From Pelagibacterium sp. (GTDB lineage: Bacteria > Pseudomonadota > Alphaproteobacteria > Rhizobiales > Devosiaceae), in the NCBI GenBank assembly GCA_002723255.1, contig PBNW01000070.1:1-64000 (forward strand): a stretch of 64,000 bases of DNA, read 5' to 3'. The stretch's first letter is position 1. The number at the start of each line of letters is the position of its first letter. Position numbers and translations under genes: made by a program. Below the pieces are notes generated by a model, which was not told the origin of the DNA, did no database searches, and worked only from the letters and a program-made list of their open reading frames with translations. This document shows, in pieces, positions 14,662-45,984 of this stretch.

Positions 14662-14677
14662 AGTTTCACGTGAATCA
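14662..14677. promoter_or_regulatory. parS-like site, distal copy
   Basis: AGTTTCACGTGAATCA matches the parS consensus at 14 of 16 positions with an intact CACGTGAA core. It lies in the dnaK-dnaJ gap, about 22 kb from the candidate origin. Confidence 0.5.
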
Positions 14678-25536: not shown

Positions 25537-26267
25537 GCCGCTTCGCCCTTCAATATGGCCAGTGCTTCACGTGAATCAATGCGCCCGTCATAGAGCGCCC
25601 GGCCCGAAATCGCACCTTCGAGGATTTGCGCATCGGGCTCGGTCATGCGGCGGATGTCTTCTATTCCGGCCAGACCGCCAGAGGCGATGACCGGAATGGA
25701 CGTGGCATTGGCCAGTTCCAGCGTCGAGGGCCAGTTGATGCCCTTCAATACTCCGTCGCGGTCGATATCGGTATAGATGATCGCTGCGACGCCGGCGCCC
25801 TCGAAGCGGCGGGCAAGGTCGATGGCAGAGAGTTCGGAGGTTTCCGCCCAGCCCTCGACGGCCACCTTGCCGCCGCGCGCATCGATGCCGACGGCGACCT
25901 GTCCGGGAAAGGCTTTGCAGGCGGCCTTGACCAGTTCGGGATCGCGCACGGCGACGGTGCCCAGGATCACCCGGGCCAGGCCTTTGTCGAGCCAGTTTTC
26001 AATATGGGCCAGCGTCCGGATGCCGCCGCCGAGCTGCACGGGAAAATCGACGGCCTTGAGGATCGCGTCCACAGCAGCGCCATTGACGCTCTCACCGGCA
26101 AACGCGCCATTGAGATCGACGACGTGCAGATACTCAAATCCCTGACCCTCAAACAGCTTGGCCTGAGCGGCGGGATCGTCGTTGAAGACGGTGGCCTGCT
26201 CCATATCGCCGAGTTTGAGCCGGACGCATTGACCGTCCTTGAGATCGATGGCGGGAAACAGGATCAT
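25533..26267 (-). CDS. hisA: Phosphoribosylformimino-AICAR ribotide isomerase
   Basis: The protein has 244 residues from ATG 26267, which overlaps the hisH stop (ATGA) and gives the family start [17 protein letters not shown] (catalytic Asp). Further motifs are [62 protein letters not shown] and [13 protein letters not shown]. An ATG at 26276 is an alternative. A parS-like site lies within its 3' end. Confidence 0.95.
25563..25578. promoter_or_regulatory. parS-like site inside hisA
   Basis: TGCTTCACGTGAATCA matches parS at 14 of 16 positions. It lies in the coding sequence near the HisA C-terminus (the DSREALAIL stretch), about 11 kb from the candidate origin. It shares the AATCA ending with the copies at 4303 and 14662. 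Confidence 0.5.
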
Positions 26268-35395: not shown

Positions 35396-36223
35396 TTACT
35401 GCCCGAGTGCGGCCAGAACACGGTTTCTGAGCGTTTCGGTTACGGCCGGCGCGACGCCGAACCACGCGCGAAACCCCGGAACCGCCTGATGGAGCAGCAT
35501 ACCCAGCCCATCGACGCTGGCAAACCCCTCGGCCCGAGCCTGGGCCAAAAGGGGGGTAATGAGCGGTGTATAAACGATATCTGTGACCACCGCCCCCTGC
35601 GCCAGAGGCGACAGATCGAGCCCATTGAACTGTGTGCCCTTCATGCCGACCGCGCTCGTGTTGACGAGCAGCCCCGCGCCCGCCATTCGCGAGCCGATCT
35701 CAGAAAGCGGCCCCGGCACGATCGTCGGGCCGAATTCGTCTGCCAGCGCCCGGGCCCGGCCCAATGTGCGGTTGATGAGCTCTATACGCGGCACGCCGCG
35801 GTCGACCAGGGCGGCCAGGATGGCCCGCGATGCGCCGCCGGCCCCGATCACCACCGCCGATCCAAGCGCCTCGTCCCAGCCCGATGCCTGGGCATCGAGA
35901 TTGGCGAGAAACCCTATATAATCGGTGTTCGTTCCCCAGATCTTGCCGTTGTCGGCCACCAGGGTATTGACCGCACCGATCCGTCTGGCCAGCGGATCGA
36001 CCTCATCGATCAGCCCCATCACCGCTTCCTTGTGGGGGATGGTGACATTGCCGCCCACGAATTCACCCGCGCGCAGCCGGGCTACCAAGCCGGCAAGATC
36101 GGACGGCGCAATTTCGATCGCTTCATAGCTGGCCTCGAGCCCATGCTCGGCAATCCAGCTCTGATGGATCAGGGGGGATTTGGAATGGGCGATGGGGTGA
36201 CCGATGACAAAGGCTTTTTTCAT
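35396..36223 (-). CDS. aroE: Shikimate dehydrogenase
   Basis: The protein has 275 residues. Substrate-binding residues are in VIGHPIAHSKSPLIHQSWI (SxS), GGNVTIPHKEAVM (catalytic Lys), and GAVNTLVADNGKIWGTNTDYIGF. The NADP-binding loop is VVIGAGGASRAILAALVDRG. It reduces 3-dehydroshikimate in aromatic amino acid synthesis. It overlaps maf by 4 bases. Confidence 0.95.
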   Translation of the reverse strand: MKKAFVIGHPIAHSKSPLIHQSWIAEHGLEASYEAIEIAPSDLAGLVARLRAGEFVGGNVTIPHKEAVMGLIDEVDPLARRIGAVNTLVADNGKIWGTNTDYIGFLANLDAQASGWDEALGSAVVIGAGGASRAILAALVDRGVPRIELINRTLGRARALADEFGPTIVPGPLSEIGSRMAGAGLLVNTSAVGMKGTQFNGLDLSPLAQGAVVTDIVYTPLITPLLAQARAEGFASVDGLGMLLHQAVPGFRAWFGVAPAVTETLRNRVLAALGQ

Positions 36224-36822
36224 GATCCCGGCTCAAAGCTTTCCGGCGCATGCTGTTCGAGCGCTGCCAGAAGCGGCAGAAGCGGCAGGCCCAGAATGGT
36301 GAAATAATCGCCCTCGATGCTCTCGAACAGGCGGATCGAGGGCCCTTCGAGCCTATAGGCAGCGACCGAATCAAAAATTGCCTCGCCCTCGAGATCGAGC
36401 ACGCGATCAACGGTTTTTCGGGTAAAGGACTTAAAGGTCAGCACCGCGGTTTCGACAGTGCTCCAGACGATTTTTCCCCCGCGGGCCAGCGCAACACCGG
36501 AATGGAGCTGATGGGACTTGCCCGCCATGGCCATCAGCCGCTCGGCGGCATCTTCGCGGTCAAGCGGCTTGTGGAGGCCCTGGTCCTGGAAAGCAATCGT
36601 CTGATCGGCCCCGATCACAAGCGCCTGGGGTGTCATGGCGCTAACGGCAAGCGCCTTGGCCTGTGCCAAAAGAGATGCAAGGCCCGCGCGATTCTCGCCG
36701 CGGGTCAAGGCCGCCTGTTCGATTTCACGCTCGTCGACCCCGGCGCTGGCCACCGAAAACCGCAAGCCCGCGTTCTCGAGAAGGCTTTTCCGCGTTGTGC
36801 TTTTGGAGGCAAGGATCAACAT
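36220..36822 (-). CDS. maf: Maf family nucleotide pyrophosphatase
   Basis: The protein has 200 residues from ATG 36822 (MLILASKSTTRKSLLENAGL). Motifs are LASKSTTR, VIGADQTIAFQDQGLHKP (catalytic Asp) and GEAIFDSVAAYRLEGPSIRLFESIEGDYFTILGLPL. Maf proteins hydrolyse modified or canonical NTPs and restrain division in some bacteria. It is the gene on the left of the candidate origin, the same place as in Caulobacter and Rickettsia. Confidence 0.93.
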   Translation of the reverse strand: MLILASKSTTRKSLLENAGLRFSVASAGVDEREIEQAALTRGENRAGLASLLAQAKALAVSAMTPQALVIGADQTIAFQDQGLHKPLDREDAAERLMAMAGKSHQLHSGVALARGGKIVWSTVETAVLTFKSFTRKTVDRVLDLEGEAIFDSVAAYRLEGPSIRLFESIEGDYFTILGLPLLPLLAALEQHAPESFEPGS

Positions 36823-36855
36823 GGCCGGGCTTTTGCGATTGGAGACGGAACGAGC

Positions 36856-36864
36856 TTTTCCACA
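36856..36864 (+). promoter_or_regulatory. DnaA box, near consensus
   Basis: TTTTCCACA differs at one position from TTATCCACA. It lies 34 bases upstream of the maf start codon, inside the candidate origin. Confidence 0.5.
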
Positions 36865-37023
36865 TGCGCTCTCACAGTTAAAGCCCATTTCGAGTTCCGG
36901 CCGTGCGGGGGCGAAGTTTTCCCCAAAGGGCGATAATGGGTTAACAGTTGGTGAACTGGGGACAGCGCAGCCGGCCTGGGGACAAGACCGGGGAAAACCG
37001 TTCGCTGCGGCACCGGCTCAACG

Positions 37024-37038
37024 TTAATCTTTCATTAA
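37024..37038. promoter_or_regulatory. CtrA box 1 in the candidate origin
   Basis: TTAA-TCTTTCA-TTAA is a perfect match to the CtrA recognition sequence TTAA-N7-TTAA. CtrA bound at such boxes blocks initiation at Caulobacter oriC. Confidence 0.7.
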
Positions 37039-37058
37039 GGATGTGCACAGGCGATCTC

Positions 37059-37073
37059 TTAACGAAACGTTAA
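37059..37073. promoter_or_regulatory. CtrA box 2 in the candidate origin
   Basis: TTAA-CGAAACG-TTAA is a second perfect TTAA-N7-TTAA match, 35 bases from the first (start to start), putting the two boxes on roughly the same face of the helix. Confidence 0.7.
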
Positions 37074-37266
37074 CGAAACCGGCGCGCCCTGATCTTTCGT
37101 CCCCGTTTTTCCGACAGGGTCCACACCCGTTCTGCCGCGCGAAACTGACGCAAGCCGATTTGGACGGGCCCGGTTGTGGGCTCGAAACAATTGGTGCAAA
37201 ACACAGCTATAAAGAAGAAGAAGACTCTTAAAGACAGATTCCTTACAGACCGAAGAGTTCCGGCAA

Positions 37267-38316
37267 TTGCAGTCTCCCTCACCCAAAATTCCAAGCGGAA
37301 AGCCGCTTCTCGATGCAGCGCATGGGATTCGGCAAAACCGCCCCCCTGTCTGGATCATGCGCCAGGCGGGACGCTACCTTCCCGAATATCGTGAGGTGCG
37401 CGAAAAGGCCGGAAGCTTTCTCGATCTTTGCTATTCGCCTGCTCTTGCCACCGAAGTCACGCTCCAGCCGTTACGCCGGTTCGATCTTGATGCGGCGATC
37501 CTTTTTTCCGATATCCTGGTGATCCCCCATGCGCTGGGCCAGGATGTCCGCTTTGCGCCGGGTGAGGGACCCATCCTCGATCCGATCGACGAGACCACGA
37601 TTGCAACGCTCAGGCCGGAAAAGGCTCTGGACAATCTCGAGAAGGTCCTTGAAGCGATTGATCGGATCAAGCTGGCTCTGAGCGAGAACAAGACGTTGAT
37701 CGGGTTCTGTGGCGCCCCCTGGACGGTAGCAACCTACATGATCGGCGGCCGCGGCTCGCCCGACCAGGCTGCGGCGCGCCTGTTTGCGCTCCACCACCCG
37801 AAGGCCTTTGCCGCGCTGATCGATATTCTGGTCGAGGTTTCGGCCCAATATCTTGTCGCCCAGTTTCGCGCTGGAGCGGACATGGTGCAGCTTTTTGAAA
37901 GCTGGGCGCTCAACCTCGATGAAGACGCCTTTCGTACCCATGTGATCGAACCCAACCGGCGGATCGTCGAAAAGGTGCGCAGTTTTGTTCCCGATGCCCC
38001 GATCACCGGATTTCCGCGCGGCGCGGCAGGCATGCTTGCCGAATATGCGCAAAGGACGGGGGTGAGCGTGTTGGGGCTCGATTTTGCTACGCCTCTGGCT
38101 TTCGCGTCATCGAACCTGCCCAAAACGTTGCCCGTACAGGGCAATCTCGATCCCCTGCGACTGGTTGCGGGCGGCGCGCAGATGGAAGAGCGCACCAACG
38201 CGATCATCGAGGCGTTTTCCGACCGGCCGCATATCTTCAATCTGGGCCATGGCATTGTGCCGCAAACCCCGATTGCACATGTTTCACGCCTTGTCGATGT
38301 CGTTCACGGGCGCTAA
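37267..38316 (+). CDS. hemE: Uroporphyrinogen decarboxylase
   Basis: The protein has 349 residues. It starts at TTG 37267, 9 bases after GAAGAG; no in-frame ATG lies nearby. Motifs are PPVWIMRQAGRYLPEYREVR (active-site Arg), AAILFSDILVIPHALGQDV (Asp), LIGFCGAPWTVATYMIGG, GADMVQLFESWA and HIFNLGHGIVPQTPI. It makes coproporphyrinogen III. It marks the right border of the candidate origin and is followed by hemJ. Confidence 0.96.
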   Translation: MQSPSPKIPSGKPLLDAAHGIRQNRPPVWIMRQAGRYLPEYREVREKAGSFLDLCYSPALATEVTLQPLRRFDLDAAILFSDILVIPHALGQDVRFAPGEGPILDPIDETTIATLRPEKALDNLEKVLEAIDRIKLALSENKTLIGFCGAPWTVATYMIGGRGSPDQAAARLFALHHPKAFAALIDILVEVSAQYLVAQFRAGADMVQLFESWALNLDEDAFRTHVIEPNRRIVEKVRSFVPDAPITGFPRGAAGMLAEYAQRTGVSVLGLDFATPLAFASSNLPKTLPVQGNLDPLRLVAGGAQMEERTNAIIEAFSDRPHIFNLGHGIVPQTPIAHVSRLVDVVHGR

Positions 38317-40285: not shown

Positions 40286-41605
40286 ATGACTTTGATGCAG
40301 ACCAGCACAACCATTGCCGCGCTATCCACGGGCAGCCTGCCTTCAGGCGTTGCAATTATCAGGCTGTCCGGTCCAAAGACCTTTGCGGCGGTCGAGGCTC
40401 TGTGCGGCAGTCTGCCGGCGCCCCGCACACTGGCGCGAAAGACGCTGATCCATCCGGAAACGGGGGAAGCCCTCGACCAGGGCCTTGTTGCCGTTTTCCC
40501 CGGGCCCCATTCCTTCACCGGGCAGGATTGTGCCGAGTTTCAGGTTCATGGTTCACCGGCCGGCGTAAAGGCCATTTTGTCCACGCTGACCACCTGTTGC
40601 GGCCTTGAATTGGCCGGGGCCGGCGATTTCACCCGCCGCGCCTTTGAAAACGGCAAGCTCGATCTTACGGCCGTTGAGGGTCTTGGTGACCTCTTGGCGG
40701 CCGAAACCGAATCCCAGCGACGTCAGGCCCTCTCGCGCCTGGAAGGCGGTCTGGCCGATCAAGTCATGATCTGGCGGGCGTTGTTGCTGGACGCGCGAGC
40801 CGAGATCGAAGCGCGTCTCGATTTTTCAGACGAAGACGACGTACCATTCGCCTTGCCGCATCATTTTATCGCCGATTTGCAGGCGCTTGGCCGCAAGCTC
40901 GCCGACGCACTGGCGAGCTATGACAGGGGCCGCATCGTCCGGGAGGGTTTCCGCATCGTTCTGGCCGGCGCGCCCAACGCCGGCAAATCGAGCCTGCTCA
41001 ATCGCCTGGCCGGCTCCGAGGTCGCGATCGTCACCGCTGAAGCCGGTACCACGCGCGATACCAAGGATGTCGCCATCGATCTCGGCGGTCAGCTCATCAC
41101 GCTCACCGATACCGCCGGATTGCGCGAGACAGACAGTCTGGCGGAAGGCGAAGGCATCAGACGGGCAAAAAAGGCTATGGAAAGCGCCGATCTCGTCCTC
41201 TGGCTGCTTGCTCCGGACGCAGTAAGTGCACCGGACATTGAAATGGACGTTCCCGTCTGGCGTCTGGGCACAAAATCGGATCTGGGGCAGGGGGCCTTTG
41301 TGGTCGATCTGTCGCTGTCGGTCACCAGCGGAGAGGGTATCGAAACCTTGCTAAAGCGCATCGAAAGCCATATTGAAGGCCGCCTCGGTGCGAGTGAATC
41401 AAGTCTGGTCAGCCATCTGCGCGACAAAGACGCGCTCGAGCGGGCGATCGTCAGCGTTGAAACGGCATTGGAGCGGATCGACCAGCCCGAACTCTGCGCT
41501 GAAGACTTGCGCCGGGCTGCCGACACTCTGGCCGGATTGATCGGGCTTATGGACAATGAAGCGGTTTTGGACCGACTGTTTGCCGGTTTTTGCATCGGGA
41601 AGTGA
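40286..41605 (+). CDS. mnmE: tRNA modification GTPase MnmE
   Basis: The protein has 439 residues from ATG 40286 (ATG 40295 is possible). The formyl-THF-binding N-domain has TIAALSTGSLPSGVAIIRLSG and FTGQDCAEFQVHGSPAGV. The inserted G domain has VLAGAPNAGKSSLLNRLAGSEVAIVTAEAGTTRD and LTDTAGLRETD. The C-terminal catalytic Cys is in FCIGK. With MnmG it installs the carboxymethylaminomethyl group at U34 of some tRNAs. Confidence 0.96.
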   Translation: MTLMQTSTTIAALSTGSLPSGVAIIRLSGPKTFAAVEALCGSLPAPRTLARKTLIHPETGEALDQGLVAVFPGPHSFTGQDCAEFQVHGSPAGVKAILSTLTTCCGLELAGAGDFTRRAFENGKLDLTAVEGLGDLLAAETESQRRQALSRLEGGLADQVMIWRALLLDARAEIEARLDFSDEDDVPFALPHHFIADLQALGRKLADALASYDRGRIVREGFRIVLAGAPNAGKSSLLNRLAGSEVAIVTAEAGTTRDTKDVAIDLGGQLITLTDTAGLRETDSLAEGEGIRRAKKAMESADLVLWLLAPDAVSAPDIEMDVPVWRLGTKSDLGQGAFVVDLSLSVTSGEGIETLLKRIESHIEGRLGASESSLVSHLRDKDALERAIVSVETALERIDQPELCAEDLRRAADTLAGLIGLMDNEAVLDRLFAGFCIGK

Positions 41606-41618
41606 TTCACGTGAAACA
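41603..41618. promoter_or_regulatory. parS site 1 (mnmE-mnmG gap)
   Basis: TGATTCACGTGAAACA matches TGTTTCACGTGAAACA at 15 of 16 positions. It overlaps the mnmE stop codon and is the first of three tandem copies in 90 bases. Confidence 0.85.
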
Positions 41619-41638
41619 CGCCGCACCCTTGTCGCGAG

Positions 41639-41654
41639 GGATTCACGTGAAACA
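41639..41654. promoter_or_regulatory. parS site 2 (mnmE-mnmG gap)
   Basis: GGATTCACGTGAAACA matches parS at 14 of 16 positions, 36 bases after site 1 (start to start). Confidence 0.8.
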
Positions 41655-41675
41655 GGGGGCGCCAATGCGGGCAAG

Positions 41676-41691
41676 AGATTCACGTGAAACA
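41676..41691. promoter_or_regulatory. parS site 3 (mnmE-mnmG gap)
   Basis: AGATTCACGTGAAACA matches parS at 14 of 16 positions, 37 bases after site 2 and 18 bases before the mnmG start. Confidence 0.8.
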
Positions 41692-43574: not shown

Positions 43575-44230
43575 CCGGTGATTCGCAGCGTTTGGCGGAC
43601 CTTGAGCGCCACGGTGCGCCAATGTTCGGCAATGTTGAGGTTATTTTCACTCAACTCCATAGATTTTCGGACCATCTTTTGCGCTGGCAGAAGGTTCAGA
43701 ATCTGGTTTCACGTGAAACACCGGGGGATCTGTGGTCGCGCCATATCCTTGATTCGCTTCAGATTTTGCCGCTGATCGGCCCAATTTCCGGGCCATTGCG
43801 CATTCTCGATATCGGCAGCGGCGGGGGTTTTCCCGCGATTCCCCTGGCCATCGCGTTGCAGGACGTCGATTTTTCCATGCATCTGATCGAATCCAACACA
43901 CGAAAATGTGCGTTCCTGCGGGCCGCGGCGCGCGAATTTGACCTGCCGATCACAGTTCATACTGCCAGAATAGAGGCGGTTCCGCCCGAAATTGTTGGGG
44001 TAGTCGATCTTTTTACCTCCCGGGCCCTAGCGCCCTTACCCTTGCTCTTGACCTATATCCACCGTTTTTGGAGCCCGCAAAGCCGCGCCATTCTGCATAA
44101 AGGGCGCGAAAATGGGGAAGAACTGAAATCAGCGGATTCAGATTGGGTTTACGATGTGTTAAAGCATCAAAGTGCGACGGACAAAGACGGCGTTCTGCTC
44201 GAGTTTTCCCATCTGAGGCCTCGCACCTAA
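43571..44230 (+). CDS. rsmG: 16S rRNA (guanine-527-N7)-methyltransferase RsmG (GidB)
   Basis: The protein has 219 residues from ATG 43571, overlapping the mnmG stop. SAM-binding loop [21 protein letters not shown], then [22 protein letters not shown] and [17 protein letters not shown]. It methylates G527 near the decoding site; loss gives low-level streptomycin resistance in other bacteria. A parS site lies inside its coding sequence at codons 45-50. Confidence 0.94.
43705..43720. promoter_or_regulatory. parS site 4, inside rsmG
   Basis: GGTTTCACGTGAAACA matches parS at 15 of 16 positions and contains the full 14-base palindrome TTTCACGTGAAA. It encodes the VSRET residues of RsmG. Confidence 0.85.
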
Positions 44231-44267: not shown

Positions 44268-45068
44268 ATGCATCCGCGTATCATTACACTCGCCAATCAA
44301 AAGGGTGGTGTCGGCAAGACGACGACGGCCATTAACCTTGCAACTGCCCTCGCCGCGATTGGTGAGCGTGTTCTGATCGTCGATCTCGATCCGCAGGGCA
44401 ATGCCTCCACCGGGCTTGGGCTCGGCCGCCAGCAGCGTGAGCGCTCGTCCTATGACCTGCTGCTCAACGAATCGACCGTCAAGGACGCGGCGGTGCTTAC
44501 CAATGTACCCAACGTTGCGATCGTTCCCTCGACCATGGATCTGCTGGGTGTGGAATTGATGATCGCCGCCGAGCGGGATCGGGCGTTTCGTTTGAAGTCG
44601 GCATTGGATAACGTTGCCGAAGTGACCATCGACAATAAGCCGATCACCTATGTGCTGATCGACTGCCCGCCGTCGCTGAATCTGCTCACCATCAACGCGC
44701 TCACCGCTGCCGACGCGGTGCTTGTGCCGTTGCAGTGCGAATTTTTCGCGCTGGAGGGTCTGAGCCAATTGCTTCAAACCATTGAGCAAATCCGCTCGAC
44801 ACTCAATCCGCGGCTGTCGATCCAGGGCGTGGTGATGACCATGTTCGACAAGCGCAACAATCTGTCCGAGCAGGTGCTCAGCGATGTGCGCGAGCATATG
44901 GGAACGCTGGTCTACGACACCGTCATTCCTCGCAATGTGCGTCTTTCCGAGGCGCCCAGCTATGGCAAGCCGGCTTTGCTGTATGACCTTAAATGCGCCG
45001 GAAGTCAGGCCTATCTTCGATTGGCCACCGAAGTAATCAAGCGCGAACGCCAGTTGCGGGCGGCCTGA
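44268..45068 (+). CDS. parA: Chromosome partitioning ATPase ParA
   Basis: The protein has 266 residues. The deviant Walker A is IITLANQKGGVGKTTTAINLATALA (signature Lys), then VLIVDLDPQGNASTGLG, YVLIDCPPSLNLLTINALTAADAVLVPLQCEFFALEGL. It binds DNA non-specifically in the ATP form and moves ParB-parS complexes. ParB follows with a stop-start overlap or short gap. Confidence 0.97.
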   Translation: MHPRIITLANQKGGVGKTTTAINLATALAAIGERVLIVDLDPQGNASTGLGLGRQQRERSSYDLLLNESTVKDAAVLTNVPNVAIVPSTMDLLGVELMIAAERDRAFRLKSALDNVAEVTIDNKPITYVLIDCPPSLNLLTINALTAADAVLVPLQCEFFALEGLSQLLQTIEQIRSTLNPRLSIQGVVMTMFDKRNNLSEQVLSDVREHMGTLVYDTVIPRNVRLSEAPSYGKPALLYDLKCAGSQAYLRLATEVIKRERQLRAA

Positions 45069-45079
45069 TGGAGAAGACC

Positions 45080-45964
45080 ATGAACGATAAACCCACTCGT
45101 CTCGGCCGCGGTCTGGCCGCGCTGATCGGCGATATGCAGCCTCTTGAAGCCGCGCCCCGCCAGGCAGAAGCCTCCACAGGCACCCGCCGGCTGCCCGTCG
45201 AATTCATAATTGCCAACCGGGCCAACCCGCGTAAGGATTTCGACGCCGAGCTGCTCGAGGATCTGACCAATTCAATTCGTGAAAAAGGCGTCATGCAGCC
45301 GCTTCTGGTGCGCCCGAGCGATCAGGGGCCAGATGTCTTTGAAATCATCGCCGGAGAGCGGCGCTGGCGCGCAGCGCAGCGCGCAGGACTGCACGAGGTT
45401 CCCGTCATCATCCGTGAGGTCGATGACAAGGAAGCGCTTGAGCTGGCAATCATCGAAAACGTCCAGCGCGCCGACCTCAATCCGCTTGAAGAAGCCCAAG
45501 GCTATGGGCAGCTGATCGAACAGTTCGACTATACCCAAAACGATCTGGCGCACGTCATTGGCAAGTCCCGCTCCCATGTTGCCAACACGCTCAGGTTGTT
45601 GCGGCTGCCCGACGAGGTCCAGCACATGCTCGAGCGCGGCGAGCTTACCGCGGGGCATGCCAGAACGTTGATTACGTCGGATGATCCATTGGCTTTGGCA
45701 CGCCGAATCGTTGACGCGGGGCTGTCGGTGCGCGAAGCCGAAGCGCTGCATCAGCAGGGCGCTGAAGCGCGTCGACCGCAACCGGCCGGCGAAAAGCGGC
45801 CGGCGTCGAAAGACGCGGACACACTGGCCCTGGAAAAGCAGCTATCGGACGCCTTGGGCCTTTCGGTGACGCTCGATCACAAGGATCGTGGCGGAAAACT
45901 GGAAATCCGCTACAAAACGCTTGAGCAGCTCGACGGAATTTGCGCGCGCCTCATGCCGCATTGA
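45080..45964 (+). CDS. parB: Chromosome partitioning protein ParB
   Basis: The protein has 294 residues. ATG 45080 is preferred because GGAGAAG lies 4 bases upstream; ATG 45068 overlaps the parA stop and is the alternative. It has the N-terminal ParA-contact motif LGRGLAALIGD, the CTPase/spreading motif IIAGERRWRAAQRAGL (GERRxR), IIENVQRADLNPLEEAQGY, and the HTH that reads parS (YTQNDLAHVIGKSRSHVANTLRLL), then the C-terminal dimer domain. parS sites lie on both sides. Confidence 0.97.
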   Translation: MNDKPTRLGRGLAALIGDMQPLEAAPRQAEASTGTRRLPVEFIIANRANPRKDFDAELLEDLTNSIREKGVMQPLLVRPSDQGPDVFEIIAGERRWRAAQRAGLHEVPVIIREVDDKEALELAIIENVQRADLNPLEEAQGYGQLIEQFDYTQNDLAHVIGKSRSHVANTLRLLRLPDEVQHMLERGELTAGHARTLITSDDPLALARRIVDAGLSVREAEALHQQGAEARRPQPAGEKRPASKDADTLALEKQLSDALGLSVTLDHKDRGGKLEIRYKTLEQLDGICARLMPH

Positions 45965-45968
45965 GCGG

Positions 45969-45984
45969 CGTTGCACGTGAAACA
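45969..45984. promoter_or_regulatory. parS site 5, after parB
   Basis: CGTTGCACGTGAAACA matches parS at 14 of 16 positions and starts 5 bases past the parB stop. Confidence 0.75.

Follow-up and report, generated by a model that had tools for sequence, protein, structure and literature searches.

A putative chromosome origin with CtrA boxes between maf and hemE in a Pelagibacterium-type bacterium of the Devosiaceae

Among described systems, Cori of Caulobacter crescentus lies between hemE and COG1806 and combines, over about 400 bp, CtrA boxes set among weak DnaA and W-type (TCCCCA) boxes with an AT-rich stretch (PMC1914354, PMC4285127, PMC4468827; papers are cited in this text for particular parts of their content). 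The putative origins of Rickettsia and Wolbachia also have hemE as a flank together with predicted DnaA and CtrA sites, although these are AT-rich genomes of intracellular bacteria and the sites are predictions of PMC1914354. A 2015 review, in the part cited, states that no origin but that of Caulobacter, and possibly that of Rickettsia, shows CtrA sites (PMC4468827), while such sites had been predicted in Wolbachia and relatives (PMC1914354), and a CtrA ChIP-seq signal adjoining the origin was later reported for Hyphomonas neptunium (PMC7200025), which is outside Hyphomicrobiales and is placed in Caulobacterales (PMC8116508). Within Hyphomicrobiales, the CtrA work that we found rests on Sinorhizobium meliloti, whose origin is described in the cited part of PMC4433202 as having no CtrA motifs and as unbound by CtrA, and on Brucella, where CtrA of B. 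abortus does not bind the origin according to the part of PMC2877005 cited. Among the titles of open-access papers found on CtrA and oriC, none concerned an origin of the Devosiaceae.

In this paper we describe the gap between maf and hemE in a stretch of 64,000 nucleotides (the window), which is contig C70 of a draft Pelagibacterium genome (G000; 3.02 Mb, 80 contigs, 84% complete). Over the 470 bp upstream of hemE, G007 and G004, which are grouped in the same genus as G000, do not differ from Pelagibacterium luteolum and P. montanilacus, so that the genus is Pelagibacterium or its GTDB equivalent. The gap resembles Cori in its hemE flank, its CtrA boxes among weak DnaA and W-type boxes, its AT-rich stretch and its length, and differs from it in that ppsR (COG1806) is not found between maf and hemE, a clear IHF site is lacking, the DnaA boxes are of the TTTTCCACA/TTATCCCC type and not of the TGATCCACA G-box type, perfect CtrA boxes number two against the five bound sites of Cori, and an element, CAAAACAC, occurs only in Devosiaceae. 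It is in all likelihood the chromosome origin of this Pelagibacterium-type bacterium, a hemE-type origin of known kind, made a variant by the occurrence of CtrA boxes in a member of Hyphomicrobiales, the missing ppsR flank and the private CAAAACAC. With the Devosiaceae the order would have members suited to a test of direct CtrA control of the origin, and the patchy distribution of the boxes allows one to ask when such control was gained or lost.

Features of the maf-hemE gap

A preliminary description of this DNA had taken the gap for a probable origin from its neighbourhood and a handful of motifs. The gene order that it gave holds on the left (maf, aroE, coaE and dnaQ, with secB over its cut-off) and on the right, where hemE is followed by a UPF0093 gene, rho, mnmE, mnmG and, over their cut-offs, rsmG and parB; its parA stands less firmly, as the NCBIfam matches of that gene fall under their cut-offs. 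The two perfect TTAA-N7-TTAA boxes 35 bp apart were recovered, as were the degenerate third box (one mismatch), the near-perfect DnaA box (one mismatch against TTATCCACA) and both GANTC sites (Table 1). The gap also has three weak TCCCCA W-type DnaA sites (36917, 36957 and 36977) that had not been listed. Its least stable part ranks second lowest in the window at 50 and 80 bp and third at 100 bp.

For IHF we searched with the consensus WATCAANNNNTTR; the gap has no site within one mismatch of it, and such a site occurs in 25 of the 40 Devosiaceae gaps, a count made without a shuffle control. By the origin features used in PMC1914354, hemE (that source accepts hemE or COG1806) is the direct neighbour, DnaA and CtrA sites both lie in the intergenic DNA, the AT content of the gap is above that of the window, which stood in for the genome, and an IHF site is missing from the gap. 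Under simplified rules for the DnaA-trio module (a DnaA box at most 16 bp from at least three NAN trios; PMC8287927) no candidate was found in the gap, and two or more GAN trios occurred in 2 of 46 Devosiaceae loci.

Table 1. Features of the maf-hemE gap and its surroundings (positions in the 64,000-nucleotide window)
Feature	Position	Strand	Basis or remark
parS-like site left of gap	25563..25578		motif scan; others at 14662 and 4303
aroE	35396..36223	-	left flank
maf	36220..36822	-	start set at ATG 36822, adjoining the beginning of the Pfam match
Putative chromosome origin, maf-hemE gap	36823..37266		444 bp, gene-free; GC 0.547 against 0.607 in window
DnaA box TTTTCCACA, conserved block B1	36856..36864	+	motif scan, alignment
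Weak DnaA/W-type box TTTTCCCCA, block B2	36917..36925	+	W-box consensus TCCCCA (PMC4285127, part cited)
Degenerate CtrA box TTAACAGTTGGTGAA, block B3	36941..36955		perfect CtrA box in four relatives; DnaA-type core in 12/40
Weak DnaA/W-type box CTGTCCCCA	36957..36965	-	motif scan
Weak DnaA/W-type box TTGTCCCCA	36977..36985	-	motif scan
DnaA-like site TTTTCCCCG, block B4	36989..36997	-	TTATCCCC-type in many relatives
Perfect CtrA box TTAATCTTTCATTAA	37024..37038		motif scan
Perfect CtrA box TTAACGAAACGTTAA, block B5	37059..37073		box kept across family
Block B6, TTGTGGG on plus strand, probable weak DnaA site	37174..37180	-	TTGTGGA/TTGTGGG in 32/40
Conserved element CAAAACAC, Devosiaceae only, block B7	37197..37204		alignment, word counts
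Least stable part of gap, probable DNA-unwinding region	37198..37248		duplex stability scan
GANTC (GACTC), candidate CcrM methylation site	37223..37227		motif scan
GANTC (GATTC), candidate CcrM methylation site	37237..37241		motif scan
hemE	37267..38316	+	TTG start
Three parS-like sites (41603, 41639, 41676), mnmE-mnmG junction	41603..41691		motif scan
parS-like site	43705..43720		motif scan
parA-type ATPase gene	44268..45068	+	NCBIfam matches shown fall under their cut-offs
parB	44993..45964	+	match over cut-off
parS-like site directly after parB	45969..45984		motif scan

The two perfect CtrA boxes of the gap are the only ones in the 64 kb (shuffle mean 0.09; at least two perfect boxes in 1 of 100 shuffles of the window). 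The gap is also the top 450-bp stretch of the window for DnaA plus CtrA sites, and it tops the same ranking in a sample of about 800 kb of a complete relative (G009; 3.93 Mb). Genome-wide, CtrA boxes exceed the reversed pattern modestly (25 against 20 in G000, 29 against 20 in G009 and 29 against 12 in G001), so that the argument is built on how the boxes are paired, where they lie and how well they are kept, and not on the motif alone. The absence of a CtrA gene would have counted against the origin proposed in the preliminary description, and the genome has an orthologue on contig C59 (NF045991, 426.7 bits against a cut-off of 350), whose receiver domain is identical at 110 of 118 residues to that of the solved CtrA 4qpj. 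Genes for GcrA and DnaA are both present as well.

Conservation and spread of the CtrA boxes

Regions upstream of hemE were taken from 46 Devosiaceae loci, with the window counted once, and reduced to 40 distinct gaps by merging identical ones and dropping L005 as the same as L001; boxes were counted in the last 420 bp before hemE. Sixty perfect CtrA boxes lie in 37 of the 40 gaps, up to three in each (shuffle mean 0.34, and no more than 4 in any of 300 shuffles). The three gaps that have none are L023, L031 and L032, and with one mismatch allowed all 40 have a box. Alternative spacers of 3-6 and 8-12 gave 0-2 matches each, and 43 of the 60 perfect boxes begin 170-270 bp upstream of hemE, in 33 gaps. 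Since the Devosiaceae sequences are akin, these counts are not independent trials, and the same applies to the DnaA-type cores (TCCACA 75 against 7.1 in shuffles, TCCCCA 63 against 11.7, TTWTCCMC 74 against 4.1) and to GANTC in the last 90 bp before hemE (58 against 13.7). In the alignment the motifs persist as islands amid variable DNA. At block B3 the gaps have TTAACA (19), TCCACA or TCCCCA (12), TCAACA (4), TGCACA (4) or another word (1), and we read this as a place where CtrA and DnaA sites are swapped between species, a pattern that fits competition without proving it. The element CAAAACAC lies no more than 160 bp upstream of hemE in 33 of the 40 gaps and in none of 181 comparison regions (78 from the rest of the order, 40 from other orders and 63 named loci).

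Where measured, maf-hemE gaps of the family are 405-584 bp long, and neither these nor the gap of the window have ppsR, the usual second flank of an origin, between the two genes. CtrA boxes are kept in five distinct gaps in which maf was not found (L024, L027, L029, L034 and L045). In four of these the flank is aroE by Pfam match, while for L027 and its duplicate L050 the chosen frame gave only CoaE. With aroE as the flank and the boxes kept, the boxes of those four gaps are not parts of a maf promoter, and such a role is weakened for the boxes in general.

The preliminary description had left it unclear how widely Hyphomicrobiales use CtrA boxes at the origin. At the level of motifs the boxes are near-universal in Devosiaceae and patchy in the rest of the order. 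For the latter, 78 of the 113 genomes outside Devosiaceae with a hemE match were used, from 43 families; L117, which has no box, and L134 were left out as irregular or too short. Perfect CtrA boxes were found in 27 of these 78 genomes and 15 of the 43 families (32 boxes; shuffle mean 1.5, maximum 5 in 200 shuffles). From other orders of the same class 40 of the 77 genomes with a hemE match were used, mostly the better matches, so that outlying orders are undersampled and Caulobacterales are possibly absent; 2 of the 40 have a perfect box, which is the level of the shuffles (mean 0.4, maximum 2). Of 63 named loci from members of the order other than Devosiaceae, five have perfect boxes, all of them in Bartonella or Cohaesibacter (genomes with a box in shuffles: mean 0.6, maximum 3), and there are none in the remaining 58, which include Rhizobium, Mesorhizobium, Brucella and Phyllobacterium; the box-bearing locus L098 is unassigned and was left out (6 of 64 with it). 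With one mismatch allowed, the counts against shuffles are 83 against 22.5 in the order, 5 against 6 in other orders and 22 against 12.7 (maximum 24) in the named loci. The named loci are thus at chance level, their one-mismatch count being under the shuffle maximum, in agreement with the parts of PMC4433202 and PMC2877005 cited. Upstream of hemE the commonest 8-mers in all three of these sets are mostly of DnaA type, with GANTC-type words, and those in Devosiaceae are of DnaA, CtrA and GANTC type, beside CAAAACAC, which speaks for an origin at this place.

A wider reading of this distribution is tentative and, taken whole, somewhat doubtful: direct CtrA control of initiation would recur in Hyphomicrobiales and would not be peculiar to Caulobacter. 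Nearly all Devosiaceae would have it, roughly one in three of the other sampled families would have retained or reacquired it, and the rhizobia and Brucella through which the order has been studied would be without it. CtrA and DnaA cores would interchange between species at one site, and the family-specific CAAAACAC beside the unwinding region would be the site of a novel origin factor.

Position of the gap on the chromosome

The expectation of a GC-skew switch at about 37 kb did not hold: there is no clean one in the window, nor one at the gap in G009, where the skew is mostly positive on either side of hemE. Of 40 windows of 20 kb sampled around the complete G009 chromosome, 35 show positive skew, which we judge unusual, and GC skew was accordingly discarded as an uninformative locator of the origin. 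According to PMC1914354, in the part cited, GC skew alone is insufficient in several alphaproteobacteria. Strand-biased words derived from the G009 arms, of which GGGCAGGG is the most biased octamer, were dominated by GC skew and were set aside too.

KOPS-like words were scored by strand. In the window, GGGNAGGG occurs six times on the plus strand and once on the minus strand left of the gap, and six times and never, respectively, right of it. The origin-side switch of GGGNAGGG in G009, near 3.865-3.871 Mb, is separated from the gap by 174-180 kb. In G032 the switch of AGGGCAGGG on this side is 78-104 kb from hemE, and in G012 it is near hemE, where the sign changes (positions of AGGGCAGGG cover all of G032 and 64 of 66 places of G012). 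Over 20 kb left of hemE, plus and minus counts are 5/0 in G001, 2/0 in G017, 5/1 in G028 and 0/2 in G012; in G001, G017 and G028 the word is on the plus strand right of hemE and mixed beyond the nearest 20 kb on the left. The origin-side switch thus has a different place in each genome: close to hemE in G012, between dnaA and hemE in G032 and beyond dnaA in G009. For this reason we ascribe its displacement to erosion or rearrangement in the vicinity of the origin and do not read it as a second origin; on this side the words were rejected as unreliable, and they were used on the terminus side. There, the antipode of the switch falls at 105-180 kb in G009 (gap at 115 kb), at 1.87-1.98 Mb in G012 (hemE at 1.966 Mb) and at about 3.56-3.63 Mb in G032, of which the length is known only as 3.8 Mb (hemE at 3.586 Mb). 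Thus hemE is opposite the terminus-side switch in all three genomes in which it could be placed. In addition, 66 of the 68 distinct parS-like sites of six complete Devosiaceae genomes are within 100 kb of hemE, with one at about 145 kb and one elsewhere.

The dnaA region was also considered. No DnaA-type or W box was found over the 880-980 bp that precede the dnaA frame of G000, G001, G012, G017 and G021, and the region was ruled out as the origin on this ground; L177 was omitted because the frame chosen there was not dnaA-like. One perfect CtrA box lies upstream of dnaA in L183, and likewise in L175, which is of another family. In the second-best G009 stretch for DnaA boxes, which is near 4.9 kb, both boxes fall within an open frame of 844 codons. 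The DnaA ATPase family has 18 other matches in G009, many of equal score and in frames of 303 or 384 codons; these are probably IstB-type insertion-sequence helper genes.

Possible control of initiation and alternative readings

Family-wide conservation of the boxes, the layout of DnaA sites, GANTC and unstable DNA, the clustering of parS and a position opposite the terminus-side switch make an origin with CtrA boxes, as first proposed, the best reading of the gap. Its fullest form, a bidirectional origin at which CtrA hinders DnaA assembly, has in our estimate a probability of about 0.7. Under this model replication would run in both directions from the maf-hemE gap. DnaA would load on the stronger box at 36856 and on a number of weak ones, and would open the unstable stretch beside hemE (37198-37248), whose GANTC sites may be methylated. 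Phosphorylated CtrA would occupy the boxes at 37024 and 37059, and probably the degenerate one at 36941, between DnaA sites, and would hinder DnaA assembly, so that, as in Caulobacter, high levels of CtrA~P would keep initiation silent. That CtrA binds boxes in the gap is very likely; that its binding restrains initiation is, by analogy, probable. Exclusion of DnaA by CtrA~P in particular is suggested by Cori (PMC4468827, PMC4285127).

It is unlikely that the gap is the origin and that its CtrA boxes merely serve transcription of hemE or its neighbours, with no restraint of initiation. CtrA is a transcription factor, 23 of the 25 boxes of G000 are located elsewhere in the genome, the S. meliloti origin is given without a CtrA site in the cited part of PMC4433202, and the preferred distance of the boxes from hemE, seen in 33 of 40 gaps, would suit a promoter. 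Against such a purely transcriptional role, boxes stand among DnaA-type sites, up to three per gap, block B3 alternates a CtrA half-site with a DnaA core, and boxes are kept where maf was not found. The discussion of Caulobacter in PMC4468827 sets a promoter role alongside DnaA exclusion, and a part in transcription is therefore compatible with an origin restrained by CtrA.

Very improbable, in our view, is a true origin 80-180 kb away on the maf/dnaA side, with the gap as a conserved regulatory region only. The displaced KOPS-like switches of G009 and G032, the GC skew without a switch at the gap and the plus-strand words on both sides of it in the window would suit such a location, but the switch has no fixed locus among G012, G032 and G009, the parS sites and the terminus antipode both indicate hemE, the dnaA upstream regions of five genomes have no DnaA-type or W box, and the runner-up DnaA stretch of G009 lies inside a long open frame. 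Most improbable of all is that the boxes are chance matches in AT-rich DNA or sites of another TTAA-binding protein. The small excess over the reversed pattern in G000 and G009 would suit this reading, whereas the strict 7-bp spacer, conservation at one position and the CtrA orthologue in the genome argue for CtrA boxes.

CtrA boxes were also seen elsewhere in these genomes. Two boxes with one mismatch lie upstream of ctrA in G000 and in G009 each. The G009 copy of a second tandem pair (3850630/3850647), near the KOPS-like switch, was rejected as an origin, since the first 2.5 kb scanned held no DnaA-type box. This pair, with its boxes 17 bp apart, is conserved (C18:64164-64195 in G000, 3850630-3850661 in G009 and 252529-252560 in G001), and in G000 and G009 it is about 3 kb from the gene of a response regulator, presumably ChvI-like.
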